From Crossiella equi (lineage in GTDB: Bacteria; Actinomycetota; Actinomycetes; Mycobacteriales; Pseudonocardiaceae): a stretch of DNA of 64,000 nt. The notes under the pieces are model-generated. The model saw nothing but the letters and a program-made list of their open reading frames with translations, had not been told where the DNA came from and did not search any database. Below are positions 1 to 58,127 of the stretch, in pieces. The stretch lies in contig NZ_JAGIOO010000001.1 in the NCBI RefSeq assembly GCF_017876755.1, forward strand, positions 6,061,786-6,125,785, in the 5' to 3' direction. The stretch's first letter is position 1; each line of letters begins with the position of its first letter. The translations under genes and the position numbers were made by a program.

Positions 1-2772
1 CCGGTTTCCCAACCTTCCGACCAGGAGTTTCAGCACCTCGAACTCCCGCACGGTCACGCCCTGCTGGCGCAGTCCCGCCGGGATGCCGCCCGCGCCTTCC
101 CGGTGCTGTCCGACCCGGACTCCGGCCTTGCGCAGCAATGCTCGGCAGGCCCCGGCCACGGTGGCGTCGTCCAGTGCGTGGAAGTAGTCCTCGGCGGTGC
201 GCAACCAGGTGACGGGGTCGCCCCAGCCCTCGGACAGGGCGTCCTCGGCGACCAGCCGCAGTCCCAGGTGCCGGGCCATCGCGTACGGTGCCCCGACCTC
301 CTGGGCCTCCTCGACAGCCGCGCGGGCTTCCTCGTGCCGACCTTCGCGGCCCAGCAGGACCGCCCGCGCGTAACAGGCGAACTGGCGGTCCCACCGGAGT
401 GCCCCGGCCGGGTTCGAGGCCAGCTGGTCGTACTCCGCTCGGGTGGTTCGTCCACAGAGGACGGTGAGCAGCAGGTGCAGGCCGTGGCGGCCGGAGAGGT
501 GGAAGACCGAGCGTTCCGAGGATTCTCCGTCCAGGGCTCGGGAGAGCTCGGCCAGGGCCTTGGGGCGGTCCTCTTCCAGCAGGGCGCAGAAGCTTCCGGC
601 CAGGCCGTGGATTCGGGGGGCGTGCAGGGCCGGGTCGCCGTGCCAGTCCCGGAACTCGGTCAGGGCTTCGTCCAGGTCCTTGCGACGGCCCTGGTGCCCG
701 GCGAGGACCGCGCGCAGCAGGAGCACGTACTGGGTGGTCTCCAGGAGTTTCAGGCGGGTGATGGAGGGGAGTACCCGGTCGATCAGGGTTTTGGCCGCGG
801 TGAAGTCGCCGTGCAGGATCGAGTGCAGGGCGATGCTCGACTCCGCCTGGTAGCGGGCCGTGATCGCGCCCGCTTTGGTGGCCAGGTCCCGGGCGTGGGT
901 CAGGCGGTCCAGGGCGCCGCTGCGGAGGGCGTCGTCGTTGCCCAGGCGGATCAGGGCGTGGATCTCCCAGATCGGGAGGTTGTGGCGGACGGCCAGGGCT
1001 CGGGCTCGTTCCAGGCAGGAGGTGGCCTCGTCCGGGTCCCGGTGGCGGGTGAGGGCGCCCAGGAGTTGCCAGGCCTGGCAGGCGACGACTGGGAGCGGGA
1101 CTTCTTCGGCGACGACGGCGGCGTGGCGGGCCAGGCGTTCGGCCGTGGCGAGCTGGCCCGGGCCCGGGATGTCCAGGGCCAGGTGGGCGGCCACCACGTC
1201 GATCTGGGCGATGTCCTCGGCCGCCGCGTCCGGGCCCAGCAGGGCCCGTGCCGCTTCGACCTGCACTATCGCGTCCGCCGAGCGTCCGGCCACCGCCGCT
1301 GCCCAGCCCAGGCGGGTGTGCAGGTCGGCCCGGCGGCGGGGGGCCAGGGCGCCGACCTGGTCCAGCGTGGCCACCAGGTCCAGGGCGCGTTCGACCTCTC
1401 CGGCCTCGGCCAGGGCGTGCACCAGGAGTTCCAGGGCCTCCGCGCGGTGCAGGGCCTCGTCGTGGGCGAGCAGGTCCCAGGCCTGGTCCAGCAGGGTCAC
1501 CGCGGAGCCCGCCGCGCCCTGGGCCAGGGCCCGGCGGCCCACCTCGGTGTACAGCCTGCCCGCCTTGGCCTGTTGGCCAGCCTGGCGGCGCAGGGTCGCG
1601 GTGACCTGGCACCACTGGTCCGGCAGGCCCGGGTGGACCTCCTCGACCGCGTCCGCCAGGGTCGCCGCCAGGCTGGTCTTGGTCGCCCGGTCCACCGAGG
1701 AGAGCACGGCCTCCCGGCTGAGCTGGTGGTGGAAGGTGTACCAGTCGGCCGTGGTCTCGTCCGGGGTGACCAGCTGGGCCGCCAGGTCGCCGTGCAGCAG
1801 GTTCAGCAGCTCGCGGTCGGACAGGCCGGTGACCTTCTGCACCACCGCCAGCGGGAAGCGCTGGCCGAGCACCGCGGCCACCGTGAGCAGCTCCCTGGCC
1901 TGCTGGCCCAGGTGCGACACGCGCTGGGCCAGGGCCCGGCTGACCGTGGTGGGCAGGGTGGCGGGCAGGGCCTCGGCCACCTGGACCGCGCCCGAGCCGA
2001 CGGTGAGCAGGCCACCCTCGACCATGCTCGCCACCAGCTCCTCGACCATGAACGGGTTGCCCCCGCCCCCGGCCCACAGCAGGTCGGTCACCGCGGGCGG
2101 TACCGAGGGCACCGCCAGGCAGGAGGCCGCCAGCGCGGCCAGGCCGGACCGGTCCAGCTGGTCCAGCTCGATCAGCAGGCACTGCCCGCGCTGCGCCGCC
2201 GCCCGCGCGATGTGCAGCGCGGGGCAGGGCTCGTCCCGGATCGCGCCCAGCAGCAGCGTGGGCTGGAGGTCCAGGTTGTCGATCAGGTACTCCAGCACGG
2301 CCAGCGTCTCCGCGTCCGCGTTCTGGAGGTCGTCCAGGGCCATCAGGCAGCCCCGGCCCCGGCCCACCAGGCCGGTCAGCCGGAGCACCGCCTCGGCCAG
2401 GATGACCAGTGAGTCGCCCTCGCGGTCCGCGCCCGCACCGCCCCAGCCGGGCAGCAACCGCCCCAGCACCGGCCCGTACGGACCCAGTGCCGACGGTTGC
2501 ACGTCCTCGGCCCGCAGCAGTGACAGCAGGGCCTCGGTGAGCGGCCGGAACGGGGTCATCGGGTCGATCGCGCTGGCGCGGCCCCGGGACAGGCTCATCC
2601 CGGTGGAGAAGGCGGCCTCCGCGACCGCCGAGGCGAGCCGCGACTTGCCGATACCGCTCTCGCCCACGAGGAACACGGCGCCGCCGCGTCCGGCCCGTGC
2701 CGCCTCCAGCGCGCCCGTCACGGCACGCAACTCGGACTCACGACCGACCAGGGTCGACGAACGGTGCCGCAC
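1..2772 (-). CDS. LAL-type LuxR transcriptional regulator, C-terminus cut by window edge
   Basis: A large ATP-binding regulator of the LAL (MalT-like) group. The GTG start at 2772 is followed by an N-terminal AAA module with Walker A GESGIGKS at residues 37-44. A long helical TPR-like middle follows. The last residues before the window edge read VTVREFEVLKLL, the start of a LuxR-type helix-turn-helix, so only the end of that domain is missing. The frame is open for 924 codons to base 1. Members of this family typically activate a nearby pathway operon in response to a ligand. Its place just downstream of the lanthipeptide genes on the same strand makes a pathway-specific role possible but unproven. 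No strong ribosome-binding site is seen before the start, so the exact start is uncertain. Confidence 0.9.
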   Translation of the reverse strand, partial: MRHRSSTLVGRESELRAVTGALEAARAGRGGAVFLVGESGIGKSRLASAVAEAAFSTGMSLSRGRASAIDPMTPFRPLTEALLSLLRAEDVQPSALGPYGPVLGRLLPGWGGAGADREGDSLVILAEAVLRLTGLVGRGRGCLMALDDLQNADAETLAVLEYLIDNLDLQPTLLLGAIRDEPCPALHIARAAAQRGQCLLIELDQLDRSGLAALAASCLAVPSVPPAVTDLLWAGGGGNPFMVEELVASMVEGGLLTVGSGAVQVAEALPATLPTTVSRALAQRVSHLGQQARELLTVAAVLGQRFPLAVVQKVTGLSDRELLNLLHGDLAAQLVTPDETTADWYTFHHQLSREAVLSSVDRATKTSLAATLADAVEEVHPGLPDQWCQVTATLRRQAGQQAKAGRLYTEVGRRALAQGAAGSAVTLLDQAWDLLAHDEALHRAEALELLVHALAEAGEVERALDLVATLDQVGALAPRRRADLHTRLGWAAAVAGRSADAIVQVEAARALLGPDAAAEDIAQIDVVAAHLALDIPGPGQLATAERLARHAAVVAEEVPLPVVACQAWQLLGALTRHRDPDEATSCLERARALAVRHNLPIWEIHALIRLGNDDALRSGALDRLTHARDLATKAGAITARYQAESSIALHSILHGDFTAAKTLIDRVLPSITRLKLLETTQYVLLLRAVLAGHQGRRKDLDEALTEFRDWHGDPALHAPRIHGLAGSFCALLEEDRPKALAELSRALDGESSERSVFHLSGRHGLHLLLTVLCGRTTRAEYDQLASNPAGALRWDRQFACYARAVLLGREGRHEEARAAVEEAQEVGAPYAMARHLGLRLVAEDALSEGWGDPVTWLRTAEDYFHALDDATVAGACRALLRKAGVRVGQHREGAGGIPAGLRQQGVTVREFEVLKLLVGRLGNR

Positions 2773-2871
2773 TTCCGGGACACTACCTATTCGGACGGGA
2801 CCAGTCAGGTGACGTAACCCTCTTGGTCCCGGGCATTTCTACCGACAAGGGCACCACTGGGCGGGGTGGCC

Positions 2872-3114
2872 TCAGAAGGTCACCGGCGGGCAGCAGGTGG
2901 TGATCGGGGCGGCCACCGACTCATCGATCGGGGCACCCGAGGCGGCCCCGAAGAACCCGGCCGCGAGCAGGCCCACCGGCAGCGCGACCCTGGTCAGAGC
3001 CACCGCGCGGGCGCCGAAGGTCAGCGACGGCAGCAGGCGCAGGCCGCCCACCGGCTCGGCGAAGTCGTGCAGGTCGGCGGAGGTCACGGCCGGGGACTCG
3101 GTGTGCTTGGACAA
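2872..3114 (-). CDS. Class II lanthipeptide precursor (LanA-like)
   Basis: An 80-residue peptide encoded 41 bp downstream of the LanM gene on the same strand. The TTG start at 3114 has GGAG about 8 nt upstream. A polar N-terminal leader (residues 1-40) is followed by a hydrophobic stretch (about 38-58), then AASGA, which resembles a leader-cleavage motif, and a short C-terminal segment. That segment has Ser66, Thr72, Thr73, Cys74, Cys75 and Thr79. LanM enzymes dehydrate Ser/Thr and add Cys thiols to the products, so TTCC with nearby Ser/Thr is a plausible core able to form up to two thioether rings. The adjacent cysteines and the membrane-like leader half are unusual. The assignment rests on position, size and composition; I do not recognise the core as a known compound. 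Confidence 0.72.
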   Translation of the reverse strand: MSKHTESPAVTSADLHDFAEPVGGLRLLPSLTFGARAVALTRVALPVGLLAAGFFGAASGAPIDESVAAPITTCCPPVTF

Positions 3115-3155
3115 GGGACTGTCTCCGTTCGGGTTCGAAGAATTCTCGGGGATTG

Positions 3156-6116
3156 TCAGTGCTCGAGCAGGATCAGGGAAGGCACTCGGTCGGGCCGGGA
3201 CAGCCGCAGCAGGCCGTGCCCGATGCCCGCGAGGCCGTTGAGCAGGCCGGGGGTGGGCACCCCCGAGGGCACACCGCAGACCGGCCCCTGCCGGTGCAGC
3301 GCGTCCAGGACCAGACCGGCCCGGCGACGGCGCGCGGCCGGCGGTCCGTCGAGCACGGTCAGGACCTCCAGGATCCCCAGCTCGCCGTGGCAGAGGCTGA
3401 GGTCGTGCACGACCGGCTGCTCGGCCAAGCCGCCGAGGTCACCGGTGGCCAGTGCGAGCCCGGCGGCGCCGGAGCACCAGCCGAGCCCCGCGGCCGAGGC
3501 CTGGCGCGTGGCCCCGGCCGCGAGGTCCGCTCGTCCGGCGTGCCGGGCCAGCGCCCAGGACACCCCGGCGAAACCGTGGGCGAAACCGCCCGGCAGGGCC
3601 ACGCCCTGGTCCAGGCACAGCGCCAGGTGCTGCGTGCAGGCCTGGGCTAGCGCCTCCGCCTCGGGCAGCCCGGTCAGGGCGTGCACGGCGCGCATCGCGG
3701 CCAGGCAGCCCGCGGTGCCGGTGGCCCAGCTGGGGTCCGCGCCCGCCCCGGCGGCCTGGGCGGCCAGCCGGACCGCGGTCGCGGTGTGCTCGCTCAGCTC
3801 AGGGGCGTCCAGCAGGGCACCCAGCCGGGCCAGGCCGTAGGCGATGCCGCCGAAGCCGTGCAGCCCGCCGCAGCCGACCGCGGTGACCAGCTGCGGCTGC
3901 TCGGCCAGCACCGCCAGCAGCCCGGGCAGGCCGCGCAGCGCGCGCCGGGCGGTCTCGGCGTACCGGGCGATGCCGGTGGCCTCGGTCAGCTCGGCCAGGA
4001 ACACCGCCACCCCGACGTGCCCGGTGGCCAGCCCGGCGCCCATGGGCAGCACGAGCCACTGCCGGTCGTCGACGAGCTCGAGCCCGAGCCAGTTGATCCG
4101 GTCGCCGCCAGGGATGCCCCGGGCCACGATCTGGTCGGCCACTGTGCAGGCGGCGGTGAGCAGGCGGTCCGGCTCTGCGGCCAGGCCGGTGCGGGATCCG
4201 GCGGGCACCAGCGGCGCGGTGTGCGGCCCGGCCGGGTGCCGGGTGGCCAGCGCGGCGGAGATGATCCACTCCTGGTCCTGCCGGTCCACCTCGCCGAAGC
4301 GGCCGAGCGTGGCCAGCGCGGCGGCCAGGCCGGTGCGGCCCAGCGGTACCGGCAGCGGCTTGCCGTCGGAGGTGCGCAGCTCGGCGCTGCCCGGCGCGGC
4401 GGTGAACAGCGGTACGTCGCCCGCCCACAGCTCGGTCAGCTCGTGCGGCAGCAGCTGCGCCAGCACCGGCTGTTCCCGTCCCGCGACCAGCACGGACAGC
4501 GCGCGGTCGCGGTCGAGGGCATCGCGCAGCACACCCGGGTGGGTGGTCTCGTCCAGCAGCGTGCTGTAGGTCCAGGTCGGCCGGGCCACCACGCGCAGGG
4601 TCAGCTCGGCGGCGGTCGCGGCGATGGTCACCAGCTCGTCCCGGTGCGTGGCGAGCACGTCGTAGACCAGCCGGAACCCCTCCAGCAGCGCGGCCTCGTG
4701 CTCCTGCGCCTCCACCGGGCGGCCGTCCAGCACCGGGCGGTTGCGGGCGCCGTCGAAGGGCCGGGCGGTGCGCACCAGGCGCATGGTGTCGGTGCCCGGG
4801 TCGGCCCAGTCGACCGCGCTGGCCGGGGCGGTGCGCCCGCCGTCGCCGCCGAGGCCGGACATGTCCAGGGTGCCCTGCTCACCGACCACGATCAGCGGCA
4901 GCAGCGCGGTGCGGTGCACCGAGCCCGCCAGCGTGTCCGCGGCCGGGTCGCCGGTGGCCGGGGCGCCGGTCAGGTCGGGGTGGAACAGCGTCTCCAGGTC
5001 GACCAGCACCGGGGTGTCGCCGTCGGCGATCAGGTTCTCGCAGTGGATGTCGGTGGCCTGCACGGCGTGCAGCAGCGCGAGCAGCGCGCCCTGCCTGCGG
5101 TAGAAGGCGTCCGCGCCCACCCGGTCGGCGACCGGGGCCCCGGGCAGGTAGGCCGACCAGCCGTAGCCCTCGCGCACCAGGGTGGGCACCGCGCGCAGGC
5201 CCAGGCCCGGCACGTGCCGCTCGGTCCAGCCGAGCAGGCGGGTCAGCAGCCGGTGCGCGTCCAGGTCGCGGGGCTTGTAGACCAGCTGCCGCCGGTCGGC
5301 GAAGCGCAGCAGCGTGGCCGAGCGGCCACCCCGGTGGGTGTCGCCCTTGCCCGCCTCGACGTCGGTCAGCGGGCCGGGGTCGACGCCGTCGAAGAGCTCC
5401 CGCACGATCACCGCGCGGTCGGCGGCCAGCCGGGTGAGCAGCTCGACGGTGGCCTCGGCCGCGCCGGTCGCGGTCTGGGCGAGCAGGCGGGCCAGCACCG
5501 GGAAGTCGCTGACCAGGTCGGCCAGGCCGGAGACGTCGGTGAGCTGGTGCACGAAGCAGGTGAACCGGGCGGCCGGGTCCACGCCGGTGAGCAGCCCGGC
5601 GGTGCGGCGGCGGTGCAGCTCGGCGACCAGGGTGCGCACGGCGACGGCCAGCAGGCGGCGGCGCAGCCCGGTGCTGAACCCGTCCGCGACGGCGGGCAGG
5701 TCGAGCGGCAGGTCGAGGTTGGCGATGCCCTCGGCCAGCCGGTCCGAGGCGTCCAGCACGAACGGCCGCAGCGGGCGGGCCAGTGCCTCCTGCCAGGGCA
5801 GCCCCTCGGCCGAGGACCCGGTCAGCTCGGCGGCGATGTCCAGCGCCCGGTGCACGGTCTCCGCCCACTCCGGGCGCGGGACCCGGGCGGCCAGCTCGGC
5901 CGGGGGCTCGGCGCGCAGGGCCAGCACGTCCGCCTCGGTCAGGCCGAGAGCGGCCACGCGGCGGGCGAAGGTGTGGTCCAATCCGTCCTCGGCCCACTGC
6001 CGCGGCTTGAGCGCCGTGCCGACCCCGGTCCGCACGAGCAGCCCGTACTCGGCCCGCTCGTGCAGGGCGAGGGCGGGTGCCCACCAGCTCGGGTCCAGGT
6101 TGCTCACGGCGGACAC
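3156..6116 (-). CDS. lanM: Class II lanthipeptide synthetase LanM
   Basis: A bifunctional enzyme of 986 residues, a normal LanM length. The N-terminal two thirds is the DUF4135-type dehydratase that phosphorylates and eliminates Ser/Thr; motifs include LVYKPRDL and DIHCENL followed by PVLVDLETLF. The C-terminal LanC-like cyclase (about 640-986) keeps the zinc ligands: Cys881 in GWCSGAAG and Cys909-His910 in LCHGELG. Both halves look intact, so a functional enzyme is expected. The GTG start at 6116 is the first in frame. It lies 99 bp after the stop of the LuxR-type regulator and is followed by the precursor gene, so the three may form one transcript. No LanT protease/transporter is present in the window, so export and leader removal must be encoded elsewhere. 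Confidence 0.95.
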   Translation of the reverse strand: MSAVSNLDPSWWAPALALHERAEYGLLVRTGVGTALKPRQWAEDGLDHTFARRVAALGLTEADVLALRAEPPAELAARVPRPEWAETVHRALDIAAELTGSSAEGLPWQEALARPLRPFVLDASDRLAEGIANLDLPLDLPAVADGFSTGLRRRLLAVAVRTLVAELHRRRTAGLLTGVDPAARFTCFVHQLTDVSGLADLVSDFPVLARLLAQTATGAAEATVELLTRLAADRAVIVRELFDGVDPGPLTDVEAGKGDTHRGGRSATLLRFADRRQLVYKPRDLDAHRLLTRLLGWTERHVPGLGLRAVPTLVREGYGWSAYLPGAPVADRVGADAFYRRQGALLALLHAVQATDIHCENLIADGDTPVLVDLETLFHPDLTGAPATGDPAADTLAGSVHRTALLPLIVVGEQGTLDMSGLGGDGGRTAPASAVDWADPGTDTMRLVRTARPFDGARNRPVLDGRPVEAQEHEAALLEGFRLVYDVLATHRDELVTIAATAAELTLRVVARPTWTYSTLLDETTHPGVLRDALDRDRALSVLVAGREQPVLAQLLPHELTELWAGDVPLFTAAPGSAELRTSDGKPLPVPLGRTGLAAALATLGRFGEVDRQDQEWIISAALATRHPAGPHTAPLVPAGSRTGLAAEPDRLLTAACTVADQIVARGIPGGDRINWLGLELVDDRQWLVLPMGAGLATGHVGVAVFLAELTEATGIARYAETARRALRGLPGLLAVLAEQPQLVTAVGCGGLHGFGGIAYGLARLGALLDAPELSEHTATAVRLAAQAAGAGADPSWATGTAGCLAAMRAVHALTGLPEAEALAQACTQHLALCLDQGVALPGGFAHGFAGVSWALARHAGRADLAAGATRQASAAGLGWCSGAAGLALATGDLGGLAEQPVVHDLSLCHGELGILEVLTVLDGPPAARRRRAGLVLDALHRQGPVCGVPSGVPTPGLLNGLAGIGHGLLRLSRPDRVPSLILLEH

Positions 6117-36289: not shown

Positions 36290-36530
36290 GGCCGGAACTC
36301 GCTGAGCGGCACGGTGCACAGCATGGCGGGCGCGGGCAAGTCGACGCTGGCCGTGCACTGTGCCCGGGGGTGAAAGCGGAGTTCCCGGACGGCACGCCGT
36401 ACGTGAACCTGCGCGGTACGGCCCGGCCACCTCGGCTCCGGTGCCCGAGGTGCTGGGCGGCTTCCCGCAGGCCCTGGGGATCCCGGCGGAGGACGTCCTG
36501 GCCGGAAGCGGAGCTCACCCGGGCCCGAGA
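36290..36530 (+). pseudogene. Decayed NB-ARC/SARP-type regulator fragment
   Basis: Pieces of an AfsR-like ATPase can be read in three frames. First VHSMAGAGKSTLAVHCAR (a P-loop), then KAEFPDGTPYVNLRGT, then APVPEVLGGFPQALGIPAED. They line up in order with VHGTAGVGKTALAVHW and EHFPDGQLYVDLHG of the intact SARP at 7746-9653. At least two frameshifts separate them, and both ends of the gene are gone. It is a remnant and not expressed as a protein. Confidence 0.75.
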
Positions 36531-36601
36531 CCCGAGGCGATCGGGGACGGCTGGCGGACTAGCGACGCGACTCGGTTGGATGACGCCTGGATGGAGTAAT
36601 G

Positions 36602-36616
36602 GTTACGGCGTAACGT
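36602..36616 (+). promoter_or_regulatory. Palindrome and -10-like box at the DUF4917 gene
   Basis: GTTACGGCGTAAC at 36602-36614 is a perfect palindrome with 6-bp arms around one base. It overlaps TAACGT (36611-36616), which ends 6 nt before the GTG at 36623. A protein bound here would cover the -10 element. The same CGTAAC/GTTACG half-sites form the arms of the inverted repeat at the RT gene. Confidence 0.5.
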
Positions 36617-36622
36617 ACTAAA

Positions 36623-37717
36623 GTGCGCGGTGCGATATCCCAATCACCAACTTTTCGGCAGATTGGGGTGGGAGCTGTGCAGAATTTTGAGGCAGCCATG
36701 ACCTGGCTTGAGGGTGCTGGGAATTGCCAGGTTCTTCTTGGCAACGGGTTCAGCATGGCGTATGACCGAGAGCGGTTCGGCTATCAAGCATTCGCTGCCA
36801 GGATCGAGACTAGGAGCTTGCTGTCGCAGGACGTTCTCAGGGTAATGGACGTGAGTGGTTGTACGGATTTTGAGCAGATTATGCACTCGTTCTTGTCGAG
36901 TGCCGCGTTGCTGAGGGCGCTCGAGGGAGATATTGATCAGTCGTTGCCGGCTCGTCTGGAAGTGGCAGCCAAGGAGCTTGGTGAGGCATTGGCGAAATCT
37001 ATCGCCCAACTCCATCCTCGTGTTCCTGGTTGTATTGAGGATAGTCAATATCGATCCACTCGACGGTTTCTGGGTCGATTTAGTTCGATCTATACCTTGA
37101 ACTACGACCTGCTCCTGTACTGGTCTCTCATGCGGGATCTTGGCCCAGAAACTCCGAGATGGGGAGGGAGCGACGGGTTCACTCGTAGTGGTCCTGGTGA
37201 AGATCTCCTGTGGAGTATGCGTTCTGCGCAAAGGCAGAGCGTTCACTACCTTCACGGTGCGATGCACTTGTTCGCCGGTGCTCAGGGGGTTAAGAAGGCA
37301 AGCTATGGAGACGGCGGGAAGCCGCTGATTCATCAGACGTTGGGTTTGCTGAAGGATGGCCTGTTTCCGATCTACGTTGCAGAAGGTTCTTCCTCGGACA
37401 AGTTGAGCAAGATCCGGCGGAGTCCGTACCTGTCGTGGGCGCTGAAGTCGTTGTCGTCCTGCTCGGGAGGGTTGGCGATTTTTGGCCACTCCTTGGCTGA
37501 CAATGATGAGCATGTGCTTGATGCCATTGTGGAATCGGGAATCGCGAGATTGGCGATATCGATCTACGGGTCAGGGGACCTGGAAGCGAATCGGGAGATT
37601 ATTCAAAAGGGAAATTTTCTGGCTCAACGGCGAGCGAAGGAGTGCCCAGGTGGCCCGGCGCTCGCAGTTCAGTTCTACAAAGCGGAAACGGTCGGTCTGT
37701 GGAGTACCTCTGGCTAG
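36623..37717 (+). CDS. DUF4917 (SIR2-like fold) protein on a low-GC island
   Basis: A 364-residue protein. Recognisable DUF4917 landmarks: VLLGNGFSMAY (37-47), IYTLNYDLLLYWSL, VHYLHGAMHLF, and GLAIFGHSLADNDEHVLDAI. The GNGFS, TLNYD and GHSL elements correspond to the nucleotide-binding loops of SIR2-type Rossmann folds. Such SIR2-like proteins in mobile islands are often NAD-degrading defence effectors; activity here is an inference. GC and codon use are far below the neighbours, with many third-position A/T codons, a sign of horizontal transfer. The GTG at 36623 is backed by a -10 box; GTG 36677 would give a more usual N-terminus. Its stop lies 3 bp from the convergent NUDIX stop. Confidence 0.8.
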   Translation: MRGAISQSPTFRQIGVGAVQNFEAAMTWLEGAGNCQVLLGNGFSMAYDRERFGYQAFAARIETRSLLSQDVLRVMDVSGCTDFEQIMHSFLSSAALLRALEGDIDQSLPARLEVAAKELGEALAKSIAQLHPRVPGCIEDSQYRSTRRFLGRFSSIYTLNYDLLLYWSLMRDLGPETPRWGGSDGFTRSGPGEDLLWSMRSAQRQSVHYLHGAMHLFAGAQGVKKASYGDGGKPLIHQTLGLLKDGLFPIYVAEGSSSDKLSKIRRSPYLSWALKSLSSCSGGLAIFGHSLADNDEHVLDAIVESGIARLAISIYGSGDLEANREIIQKGNFLAQRRAKECPGGPALAVQFYKAETVGLWSTSG

Positions 37718-37720
37718 CGG

Positions 37721-38221
37721 TCACCCGAACCAGGTCAGCTGAACCGGCTCCTCCGGCACCCCACCGGCGATCCGGGCCAACAGCTCGGACAACCCGATCG
37801 GCAGCACCTGCTCCGCGGCCTCCCCGAGCCGGTCCACGGGCCACCACCGGTGCCCGAGCAGGTGTGACAGCTCGCCCTTCTCCTGCCCGGCGATGTCGAC
37901 CTCGAACGCGGGCACGCGCAGGTGGAAGTAGTACTCGGTGGCGAAGGTGGGGACGCGGCTGTAGGTCCACCTGCCCGAGGTGGTGGCCACCACCGGGCCG
38001 ACCGCGGACTCCGGCAGCACGAAGCCGGTCTCCTCGCGCAGCTCGCGCACGGCCGCCGCGGGCAGGGTCTCGCCGTCCTGCACGCCGCCGCCCGGGGTGG
38101 ACCAGCAGGTGCGTTCACCCGCCCGGCCGTAGCGGTTGTGGAAGAGCAGGATGCGGTCCGCCTCGTCGACCACCAGCAGGCGTGCGCTGGTGCGGACCCG
38201 GTGTGCTGGCTGTGCCCCCAT
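37721..38221 (-). CDS. NUDIX hydrolase
   Basis: A 166-residue Nudix enzyme. The Nudix box GGGVQDGETLPAAAVREL followed by REETG matches the GX5EX7REUXEEXGU consensus. These enzymes hydrolyse nucleoside diphosphates linked to another moiety; the substrate cannot be told. ATG at 38221 lies 7 nt after a TAGGCT box that contains the dinG stop codon, so it may be transcribed both from the dinG promoter and from its own. Confidence 0.92.
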   Translation of the reverse strand: MGAQPAHRVRTSARLLVVDEADRILLFHNRYGRAGERTCWSTPGGGVQDGETLPAAAVRELREETGFVLPESAVGPVVATTSGRWTYSRVPTFATEYYFHLRVPAFEVDIAGQEKGELSHLLGHRWWPVDRLGEAAEQVLPIGLSELLARIAGGVPEEPVQLTWFG

Positions 38222-55970: not shown

Positions 55971-55988
55971 TCCTGAGAGTCTGGCTCC

Positions 55989-56047
55989 AGTTGGGTAGCG
56001 TAACTTCTGCAATTCGGTAGTCAGGCGTTACGCTACCCAACTAGTAT
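55989..56047 (+). promoter_or_regulatory. 16-bp perfect inverted repeat and -10 box of the RT gene
   Basis: AGTTGGGTAGCGTAAC (55989-56004) and its exact complement GTTACGCTACCCAACT (56027-56042) flank a 22-nt spacer. TAGTAT (56042-56047) ends 7 nt before the GTG at 56055. The right arm therefore occupies the -35/-10 spacer, as an operator would. As RNA the repeat could also end the cysM transcript. Confidence 0.6.
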
Positions 56048-56054
56048 TCGCGCT

Positions 56055-57599
56055 GTGAAGCGTCCTCGAAGCGTTCCTGGAAGACGGGCAATTCCGGGCC
56101 GATCGTTTTCTGATTGCCTTAATGTGGCAAAGATGAATCTGGGCAGCGCGGGGATTGATTTGGAACTTCCTGATGTAATTGCATATGCTGACATCAGGTC
56201 GCAGTGGCATTCTTTGGGGCCGTCACTGGTTGAAGATTTCGAGGACGGTCGTACCTCTTGGCCTGTGAATGTGGAGATTGTAGATCTCCCTAAGGATAGA
56301 ATATCCGTTAGGCCGCTTGCTCGCCTGGAAACTGTGCATAGGCTGGTTTATGAAGCCCTTGTAATTGCGGCTGCTGCAGATATATCAAAAGAAGTTTCAA
56401 AATCTGTTTACAGCAGTTGCTGGTGGTCCAGGAGGCAGCGTTTCTTGAGTCCGGTAGGGCGATGGATCAAGATGCAGCGAGCGGCACTCGATTTCCATGT
56501 CAGGAACCCTGATTTGTTTCTGGCTACAACTGACATTGCAAGCTTTTACGAGCATATTGATATATCAATTCTTTCTGATGATATTCGGAGGTTGGGGGTT
56601 CAGGAGTGGATTTCGGTCGCTCTTCGGCAGTTTCTTGAGGCTTTCAATGGCCTCAGTAGTGCGTGGGGGATTCCTCAGGGATCGGATATGTCTGGGCTGC
56701 TGGCCAATCTGTATCTGACTCAGTTTGATGAAGAGATTCGCCGGAGTGGATTTAAGCACTTCAGGTATTCGGACGATACCTATATATTTGGTCCAGACGA
56801 GGACAGTCTTCGGGGAGTGCTGATTAGCGCAAATAGGACGCTTAGGCATAGGCATCTCAATATCGCGGGGTCTAAGACTGCGATCGTTTCGGGTGATGCT
56901 GCGATGTCTAAACTGGAAGATAAACAGAAGGATGCCATCAACTACGGGCTCAGGATTGGGCTGCCTGGAGTTGAAGTGGATGTGCGATCCCTGTTCGATA
57001 ATGCAACCAAAGATTTGATTAATATTCGAGATGTTAGATTCTCGTTGACCAAGATGAGAGAGCTGCGTGACGACTATGCTGTCGGTTGGATACTTGAAAA
57101 TGTCGAGGAAATTCCTCATGCGGCGCGTGAGGTCGTAGTTTACCTCGATTCTTTCCCGCGCCTGAAAGGATACATTTCCGCTAGCTTGATTCGAATTTTC
57201 TCCGGTTCAAGAGTGGGTAACTTTCCGTATATTCAGCAACACCTTTTGATCTACTTTATTCGCAATTCCGTGCGGGGCGCTGCTTTGGTGGACAAAGCGT
57301 GGGAAATTCTACTTGACAAGAATGTTGAAACTTTTGTTCGGGAGATGGCGGCTAGGTATCTAGGACTTTTTGGTACGGTGGGGTCTAGTGGCAGGCTGAA
57401 GCAGCTTTTTCGGGAGGAGACTAACAATAAGCTTCGCAGGGCGTTGCTTGTGGCTTGCTGTGAGTCAAGGCAGGGGACTAATGAGTGGCTGAAAGTTGTG
57501 GGCGATTCGGATCGTTCGCTGAAGATCACTGCTGACTATTTGCAAGAAGGTCCGAAAAAGATTCCGTACCCACAGTTTGAGAGGCCACCTTGGCGCTAA
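56055..57599 (+). CDS. Defence-type reverse transcriptase (DRT/Abi-like)
   Basis: A 514-residue RNA-directed DNA polymerase. Catalytic Asp160 in FLATTDIASFYEHI, the GIPQGS box at 205-210, and YSDD at 238-241 (YxDD) with FRYSDDTYIF. The polymerase core ends near residue 270. The remaining 240 residues are helical and repeat-like (for example REVVVYLDSFPRLKGYISAS), as in Abi-type RTs. No maturase or endonuclease domain is visible, so it is not a group II intron. GC and codon use are much lower than the host's. The GTG start is backed by a -10 box 7 nt upstream. It overlaps the SLATT gene by 10 bp. Confidence 0.92.
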   Translation: MKRPRSVPGRRAIPGRSFSDCLNVAKMNLGSAGIDLELPDVIAYADIRSQWHSLGPSLVEDFEDGRTSWPVNVEIVDLPKDRISVRPLARLETVHRLVYEALVIAAAADISKEVSKSVYSSCWWSRRQRFLSPVGRWIKMQRAALDFHVRNPDLFLATTDIASFYEHIDISILSDDIRRLGVQEWISVALRQFLEAFNGLSSAWGIPQGSDMSGLLANLYLTQFDEEIRRSGFKHFRYSDDTYIFGPDEDSLRGVLISANRTLRHRHLNIAGSKTAIVSGDAAMSKLEDKQKDAINYGLRIGLPGVEVDVRSLFDNATKDLINIRDVRFSLTKMRELRDDYAVGWILENVEEIPHAAREVVVYLDSFPRLKGYISASLIRIFSGSRVGNFPYIQQHLLIYFIRNSVRGAALVDKAWEILLDKNVETFVREMAARYLGLFGTVGSSGRLKQLFREETNNKLRRALLVACCESRQGTNEWLKVVGDSDRSLKITADYLQEGPKKIPYPQFERPPWR

Positions 57600-58093
57600 T
57601 TGAGGTTGACTTGACTGGCTTTGAGAAGCAACTTCGCAAAATTTCAGAAGACTGCCAGTATTCGGCGCAGACTTACTTCGAGGCTGCAAAGATTGCAGAG
57701 TATTGGGGTCGTGTAGTTGTTTTTATTCCGGCTCTACTGGGGGCGCTTTCGGGTGTCTTTGTGGCCCTTTTTGGAGTTAGGGAGCTGGGTGCCGTAAGTG
57801 CAATTAGTGGAGCAGTTGCTGCTACTGCTTCTTTTGTGGGGGTAGATAAGAGATCTAGTTCATTTAAAGACTCGGCTAAGGGTTTTACTAGGCTTCGTCA
57901 TCAAGCCTCGTTGGAATTGGATTTGATGGGCGCAAGATCCTCTGTTCAAGAGCTAGAGGATCTTGTAAGGTCCCTTAGAAAAGATTATGAGGCTATTGTT
58001 TCCGTGACTGAGCCTGCTCCGGATCGAGCTTTTCGGAAGGCTCGCTCCAGAATTTGTGGCGGGGTGCTTAAATATTCTACAGAAAGTAATTAG
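57590..58093 (+). CDS. SLATT-type two-helix membrane protein coupled to RT
   Basis: A 167-residue protein: short amphipathic start, two membrane helices (about 41-62, VVVFIPALLGALSGVFVALF, and 65-86, AVSAISGAVAATASFVGV), then a helical, partly coiled-coil tail (RHQASLELDLMGARSSVQEL). This matches the SLATT family, proposed to form pores as killer effectors of conflict systems. TTG at 57590 has GAGG just upstream and lies inside the RT gene, so it is translated with it. Low GC like the RT gene. Confidence 0.75.
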   Translation: MALIEVDLTGFEKQLRKISEDCQYSAQTYFEAAKIAEYWGRVVVFIPALLGALSGVFVALFGVRELGAVSAISGAVAATASFVGVDKRSSSFKDSAKGFTRLRHQASLELDLMGARSSVQELEDLVRSLRKDYEAIVSVTEPAPDRAFRKARSRICGGVLKYSTESN

Positions 58094-58127
58094 ATTACTA
58101 TTATTACTGTGTTGCGTGTGTTCGTGC

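Follow-up and report, generated by a model that had tools for sequence, protein, structure and literature searches.

An acquired reverse transcriptase of the UG23 group and its SLATT-type partner in Crossiella equi: a putative defence operon with exchangeable effectors

In a 64,000-nucleotide stretch of the Crossiella equi genome (contig NZ_JAGIOO010000001.1, positions 6,061,786 to 6,125,785; called here the window), a reverse transcriptase (RT) gene overlaps the gene of a small membrane protein on a low-GC island between cysM and an SMP-30 gene, and this locus raises the question of which kind of RT system it encodes and how the polymerase might be linked to the membrane protein. By sequence the pair is of the UG23 type, and by gene content the SLATT-type membrane protein is one of three exchangeable effectors found in the UG23 effector slot. 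We consider it slightly more probable than its contrary that the pair constitutes a defence operon in which a class-1-like, protein-primed and RNA-independent polymerase makes a DNA product that controls an exchangeable killer protein. Coordinates of the features are collected in Table 1.

Comparison of the RT with the PADLOC profiles gave 630 bits for UG23, 230 for UG32, 209 for UG21, 136 for Drt8, 62 for Drt3a, 58 for Drt2, 54 for UG17 and 49 for Drt9. The RT_UG23 match connects RT residues 17–505 with positions 2–488 of the 489 of the profile, the runner-up UG32 reaches an expectation value (E) of 1.3e-68 and the UG17 profile covers residues 156–279 only; on these profile matches the RT belongs to the UG23 group. 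A preliminary description of the locus, made from the sequence alone, had announced a 514-residue RT with an intact catalytic aspartate and YSDD motif, and the open reading frame (ORF) and the alignment with other UG23 RTs bear this out (Table 1). It had also expected a UG-type enzyme without kinship to group II intron or retron RTs, which agrees with the scores of those models far below their cut-offs: TIGR04416 for group II introns attained 74.7 bits against 300, in the RT part only, and retron_St85 30.9 bits against 235, with no Rfam match up to E = 5. In Pfam the RT matched only RVT_1 and, below threshold, HEAT_2; neither a nitrilase nor a phosphohydrolase domain, the feature of class 3, was found. 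The opinion that the pair matched no well-known fused type had to be given up, as the combination of UG23 with RTasSLATT is a catalogued type in PADLOC. The extended UG groups were reportedly defined in the UG/Abi classification paper.

The gene of the membrane protein overlaps the RT gene by 10 bp, as had been described, and the identical 10-bp overlap is found in two relatives (L009 and L014; L and G numbers denote loci and genomes of this analysis). Its early naming as a SLATT-type protein is supported by the PADLOC model RTasSLATT and by NCBIfam SLATT_4 with 58.2 bits, just over the cut-off of 55; against this assignment, Pfam SLATT_1 (15.5 bits) and SLATT_4 (14.0 bits) stayed under their gathering thresholds of 26.3 and 27. 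A predicted structure of moderate confidence has helices at residues 9–61, 67–83 and 85–115 with a break at 62–66, which together with the hydrophobic stretches over residues 35–86 would fit two transmembrane helices, and no solved fold stood out in a structure search with this model. The protein also matches, more weakly, PADLOC models called Effector, 2TM, which we take to be CBASS effectors, and no cyclic-nucleotide-binding domain was matched in it with Pfam or NCBIfam. The gene pair is more than chance, because the RT_UG23 match of 630 bits stands beside an RTasSLATT match of 219 bits and because the pair recurs in other genomes.

The island is a horizontally acquired insertion of foreign composition, because the site is empty in 4 of 4 other genomes of the genus, where 13–16 nt separate the stops of cysM and SMP-30, and because its GC content and its GC content at third codon positions (GC3) are deviant. 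About 2.14 kb were inserted into the small spacer between these convergent genes, and the GC profile drops from approximately 0.70–0.74 outside to 0.47–0.50 over the gene pair. The RT and SLATT genes have GC contents of 0.49 and 0.47, respectively, versus 0.72–0.74 in the flanking cysM, SMP-30 and rhomboid genes, and GC3 values of 0.49 and 0.38 versus 0.93–0.97. These data bear out the earlier description of a low-GC block, whose stated edges coincide with the two stop codons, and of a codon usage unlike that of the host, and they speak against a fixed core locus. The identities given to cysM, SMP-30 and rhomboid agree with their sequences as judged by eye. The gene pair occupies nearly the whole island, so that neither an integrase nor a transposase is encoded on it; no tRNA was found in the 64-kb window, no exact target-site duplication was readable by eye at the island edges, and no second match to the RT or SLATT profile was obtained in the 9.44-Mb genome at E <= 0.001.

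For the RT a class-1-like architecture is predicted, in which a HEAT-like alpha-repeat C-terminal domain resembles those of the Abi proteins, DRT4 and DRT6 (DRT, defence-associated RT). The helical C-terminal half noticed earlier reappears as helices at residues 306–497 of the model. The structure search was run with the whole predicted RT model, the helical domain not being used as a separate query, and it aligned 394–451 residues, at 11–16% sequence identity, with nine entries of the Protein Data Bank (three of AbiK, two of DRT4 and one each of AbiA, Abi-P2, UG15 and DRT6), whereas the six DRT9 and DRT2 entries among the matches listed aligned over 244–258 residues within model residues 16–326, and DRT9, DRT2 and group II enzymes match chiefly the RT half. 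A helical half of this kind suggests that DNA is made independently of an RNA template; in the class 1 RTs studied so far, DNA synthesis is template-independent according to the available text of the reports (PMC13174585, PMC13275509, PMC11077055; these and the other papers cited are used from the parts of their text available to us). A candidate protein-priming residue, suggested by the analogous Tyr298 of AbiA (PMC11077055), is Y297, which sits in a low-confidence linker between RT and helical domain (predicted local distance difference test below 50 at residues 289–298). This tyrosine is missing in L104, L111 and L114, which form one UG23 clade and have a serine in this loop, three positions closer to the N-terminus.

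A total of 26 distinct UG23 loci was collected, including the window, all of them from the class of the window or from records named actinobacteria; most searches were confined to actinobacteria, and the one unconfined scan, of a genome collection, used patterns drawn from four actinobacterial RTs. Each of the 26 loci has one effector: 13 have a SLATT protein, 12 have a 2TM-NUDIX protein and one has a TIR domain fused to the RT. PADLOC called 7 of the 13 SLATT and 3 of the 12 NUDIX effectors, the remainder being called with profiles built in this analysis. Both membrane effectors match the PADLOC models called Effector, 2TM. In all loci with a separate effector the gene order is RT then effector, and the effectors begin between 70 nt inside the RT gene and 46 nt past it, distances based on longest-ORF starts, so that some overlaps may be shorter; the gap of 46 nt stems from L114, in which the profile match crosses one in-frame TAG near the RT end and the ORF was taken only to that TAG. 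The pair also occurs in other genomes away from the surroundings seen here: the flanking genes of the window had no match (1e-10) in the 25 other loci, for most of which 1.5–4 kb around the RT were covered. In L005 (genome G823, 1498–3516, minus strand) the UG23 RT has an N-terminal TIR fusion (TIR_2, E 1.9e-28), and neither a SLATT nor a NUDIX gene is present in its flanks of 0.9 and 1.5 kb. No mention of a TIR-RT fusion in UG23 was found in the available text of the literature searched. A TauD-like ORF (PF02668, E 5e-7) lies directly 3' of this gene. Another domain added at an RT N-terminus was seen in a neighbouring UG group, where the UG32 RT of L006 (genome G892, 1447–3132, minus strand) carries a HTH_17 DNA-binding domain (E 2e-8).

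The 25 UG23 RTs were placed in a tree with a UG32 RT as outgroup; good support was obtained for 14 of its 22 inner branches, and the branch of L005 is long. The RTs of the window and of Amycolatopsis jejuensis (L009; 55% identity) are sisters with support 100/100, the NUDIX loci form one group (96/97), and the effector labels require two changes overall. RT identities correlate with those of the SLATT proteins (r = 0.81, n = 12) and of the NUDIX proteins (r = 0.98, n = 11, L107 omitted), and in both cases 0 of 1000 permutations were as high. At the level of sequence comparison this correlation shows co-inheritance more than contact, because the permutation ignores tree structure.

At E <= 1e-60 the window's own genome was the only one with UG23, both among 397 genomes of the order and among 396 of the phylum, whereas the class sample gave matches in 7 of 394 genomes at 1e-25, 4 of them to UG23 proper (554–630 bits); L006–L008 (98–190 bits) were set aside as other groups, L006 having been checked to be UG32. 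At 1e-100, UG23 was found in 12 of 343 genomes of a Streptomyces-like genus and in 1 of 35 in the order of genome G823, and at 1e-90 in 2 of 219 in the order of genome G1039. The scan of the genome collection, of which the best 80 of 109 matches were considered, gave 79 loci; at least 12 of them (L009–L020; near-whole query, 2e-78 or better) are UG23, 2 repeating class-sample loci, and the other 67, with matches of 1e-9 or worse, were dropped. Among 14 control genomes, 4 were positive at 0.001 in the loose search used for the own genome and none at the strict limits used for counting. Identical proteins on contigs of equal length (L003 = L011, L004 = L020) and an identical stretch (L108 = L012) were counted once; L106 and L107 are two loci with identical RTs in two genomes. 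Tree and residue counts comprise 25 UG23 RTs including these two, L116 being absent from trees, Y297 count and correlations. No UG23 was found in phages; of two scans of viral contigs, one gave no relative and the other five matches between 1e-7 and 2e-8, all confined to the RT part. The plasmid search yielded one RT-half match beside transposases, taken for a group II RT and not UG23, and the SLATT partner was not found in plasmids.

Compared with the UG23 group as defined in PADLOC (RT_UG23 with RTasSLATT or RTasNUDIX), the window has the RT profile match and the adjacent effector and shows no departure, whereas its relative L005 differs by the N-terminal TIR fusion in place of SLATT. In the literature searched, the available text of the myRT paper (PMC8934634) was the one place where UG23 was met as a class of RTs; RTasSLATT was not mentioned anywhere, and no experiment or phage test on UG23 was found. 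New are the exchangeable effectors with the TIR fusion, the Abi-like fold of the predicted model and the precise empty sites; the family itself was already catalogued. DRT10, which consists of a UG17 RT, a non-coding RNA (ncRNA) and a SLATT protein, is similar in that a UG-type RT adjoins a SLATT membrane protein. It belongs to class 2, has a 137-nt ncRNA (in Eco3DRT10) upstream of SLATT, is primed from a C-terminal Ser/Tyr and requires SLATT for defence (PMC12632851). In contrast, the window RT is UG23 and not UG17, its SLATT gene overlaps the RT gene, no such ncRNA was found, the helical domain is predicted to be Abi-like, and the partner is SLATT_4, whereas UG17 RTs pair with SLATT_5 in 82% of cases (PMC8934634). 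Membership in DRT10 was rejected, as neither a UG17 RT nor an upstream ncRNA of about 137 nt was found at the locus. AbiK, AbiA, Abi-P2, DRT4 (UG15) and DRT6 share with the window the order of RT and helical repeat domain and a near full-length match of the predicted fold, and no ncRNA gene was found at the window locus. DRT4 and DRT6 are listed as single-gene systems (PMC13213688), whereas every one of the 26 UG23 loci has an effector, either as a gene of its own or fused to the RT. Panoptes (mCpol with 2TM-beta) and the CBASS 2TM effectors resemble the window in pairing a nucleotide polymerase with a killer that has two transmembrane segments, in the window putatively so, but the window polymerase is an RT and not a cyclase, and its SLATT protein lacks a matched cyclic-nucleotide-binding domain.

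In the mechanism that we favour, the RT would work as an oligomer, like AbiK, DRT4 and DRT6, and without a dedicated RNA template would make single-stranded DNA (ssDNA) covalently bound to itself, perhaps starting from Y297 in the linker loop. The RT-DNA complex would act as a switch for the SLATT protein, and in the healthy cell it would somewhat more likely keep SLATT inactive than activate it. Restraint is preferred because in described systems of this logic a constitutive product keeps the killer off or dormant: this is the case in Panoptes and retrons, while DRT1 adducts impose a dormant filament and also prime the nitrilase (PMC12657230, PMC13275509, PMC12632851), and the authors of the DRT10 study raise restraint as a possibility (PMC12632851). 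If the DNA were then altered by a nuclease, a DNA-binding protein or the replication of the phage, SLATT would assemble in the membrane and permeabilise it, and the cell would die or halt growth before phage release. In relatives, the slot of SLATT is taken by 2TM-NUDIX or by a TIR domain fused to the RT.

A dedicated template RNA is unlikely, because there is little non-coding room in the island (84 nt upstream of the RT and 34 nt after SLATT), upstream similarity among relatives is short, Rfam gave no match and no block of fourfold sites is shared; an RNA inside the genes or acting in trans is possible. Upstream regions were compared in 24 loci (without L005 and L020, L108 included), and similarity before the start codon extended over only about 55 nt in L012/L014 and about 79 nt in L109/L110, two pairs of diverged operons. 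When identity at fourfold sites was followed along the RT and effector genes of 9 pairs, no block was raised in all of them, several pairs being too diverged for power. The inverted repeat adjoining the RT gene is perhaps an operator or terminator, or an insertion scar. A possible -10 box (TACGCT, 56029–56034) was noticed by eye in its right arm, a consensus promoter scan found no site upstream of the RT, and the arm (<=1 mismatch) occurs at this single place in the 9.44-Mb genome. As a conserved ncRNA the hairpin was rejected, being unique in the genome and having no counterpart in the 100 nt upstream of the RT in the 10 relatives folded of 25 (z scores from -1.72 to +0.60). Also rejected as an RNA gene was a conserved stretch downstream of several Streptomyces UG23 operons, which proved to be a dispersed repeat measuring at most about 350 nt; in the 19 genomes compared, it occurs in 8 of 9 that lack a UG23 match at 1e-100 and in 7 of 9 that have one, and it is missing from the window's genome. 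The repeat lies downstream of L014, L106, L107, L109, L110 and L012, upstream of L015 (by eye) and beside L113, with 1–5 copies per genome where found, and is possibly a mobile element tied to island turnover.

Several observations weigh against the favoured mechanism: the sequence does not decide between restraint and activation; L015/L113, L016/L112 and L017–L019 have longer upstream similarity, perhaps due to common surroundings or a dispersed repeat; and the 54-nt inverted repeat just upstream of the window RT gene folds into a strong hairpin (z = -3.7). The hairpin would suit a DRT10-like system, in which a short RNA, be it the hairpin, an intragenic RNA or one acting in trans, serves the RT as template for repeat DNA controlling SLATT, and the same effector superfamily indeed serves the ncRNA-templated UG17 RT of DRT10 (PMC12632851). 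Nevertheless we regard such a system as unlikely, given the partial UG17 match of 54 bits against 630 for UG23, the 10 of 10 folded relatives without a comparable fold upstream of the RT, the lack of space outside the genes for an RNA of DRT10 size, the missing Rfam match and consistent embedded constraint, and the RT model that aligns further with Abi, DRT4 and DRT6 than with DRT9 and DRT2. In CBASS and Thoeris, 2TM and TIR effectors are switched on by a nucleotide signal, and the effectors of the UG23 slot are of these kinds. This would favour activation, with the phage triggering RT synthesis and the new DNA opening a SLATT pore rather than restraining SLATT, which we take for a real possibility of less than even probability in view of the precedents for restraint in Panoptes, retrons, DRT1 and, as raised by its authors, DRT10.

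The RT might also be a sensor that touches SLATT directly, DNA being a by-product or itself toxic to the phage, an effect reported for the random ssDNA of DRT4. The TIR fusion of L005, which implies that signalling can occur within one protein, and the single-gene nature of DRT4 and DRT6 (PMC13213688) are in line with this, and direct contact would likewise produce co-divergence of RT and effector. However, all 25 fusion-free loci retain a separate effector gene that diverges with the RT, so that the RT alone is apparently insufficient, and this reading appears doubtful. That the pair has no function in defence, being instead a mobile element in decay or two domesticated genes, is compatible with the absence of a phage test of the UG23 type from the literature searched and yet highly improbable, considering the empty site in all four congeners, the foreign composition, the rare and scattered distribution (only the window's genome in 397 of the order, 12 of 343 in the Streptomyces-like genus), the catalytic residues intact in 25 of 25 RTs and the pairing of the RT with a conflict-type effector in 26 of 26 loci.

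Table 1. Features of the UG23 locus (positions in the window)
Feature	Position	Strand	Remarks
Low-GC island, 2,157 bases	55971..58127		exactly the interval between cysM stop and SMP-30 stop
Inverted repeat with arms of 21 nt (90% complementary, perfect core of 16 bp) and a spacer of 12 nt	55989..56042	+	adjoins RT gene on its 5' side
UG23 reverse transcriptase, 514 aa, GTG start	56055..57599	+	RT_UG23 630 bits, E 5.2e-190; RVT_1 60 bits
Codon of catalytic Asp D160	56532..56534	+	identical in 25/25 UG23 RTs aligned
YSDD motif, residues 238-241	56766..56777	+	S239, D240, D241 in 25/25; Y238 in 24/25 (one Phe)
Codon of Y297, candidate protein-priming residue (hypothesis)	56943..56945	+	Tyr in 22/25 UG23 RTs
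C-terminal alpha-helical repeat domain, residues 306-497	56970..57545	+	predicted model; sub-threshold HEAT_2 match
SLATT-type membrane protein (RTasSLATT), 167 aa, TTG start	57590..58093	+	RTasSLATT 219 bits, E 5.9e-66, residues 9-159
Hydrophobic stretches of the SLATT protein, about residues 35-86	57692..57847	+	hydropathy

Elsewhere in the window, a second stretch of low GC (36370–37717) has 500-nt windows with GC contents of 0.54–0.58 versus 0.72 for the whole window. It contains the gene of a DUF4917 protein of 364 aa (36623–37717; PF16263, E 2e-53), perhaps another acquired gene, which is adjoined by a NUDIX-like gene, named by eye, at 37721–38221 on the minus strand.

How the DNA made by defence RTs leads to cell death is an open question on which UG23 bears, and the role of the DRT10 complementary DNA was left unanswered by the authors of that study (PMC12632851). 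A wider idea, tentative and rather unlikely in our estimation, is that self-attached untemplated DNA is a common regulatory ligand for pore-forming SLATT, 2TM-NUDIX and TIR killers and that SLATT was recruited at least twice by DRTs. If true, one recruitment would have been by an RNA-templated RT (DRT10) and one by an untemplated RT, and SLATT would sense RT-bound ssDNA in general and not a particular repeat sequence. UG23 offers a clean comparison, with a single RT scaffold combined with three types of effector and apparently without RNA, and the TIR fusion possibly provides a readable enzymatic output (loss of nicotinamide adenine dinucleotide, if the TIR domain is active). If UG23 works without RNA, its comparison with DRT10 would show whether SLATT senses the sequence of the DNA or DNA attached to the RT.

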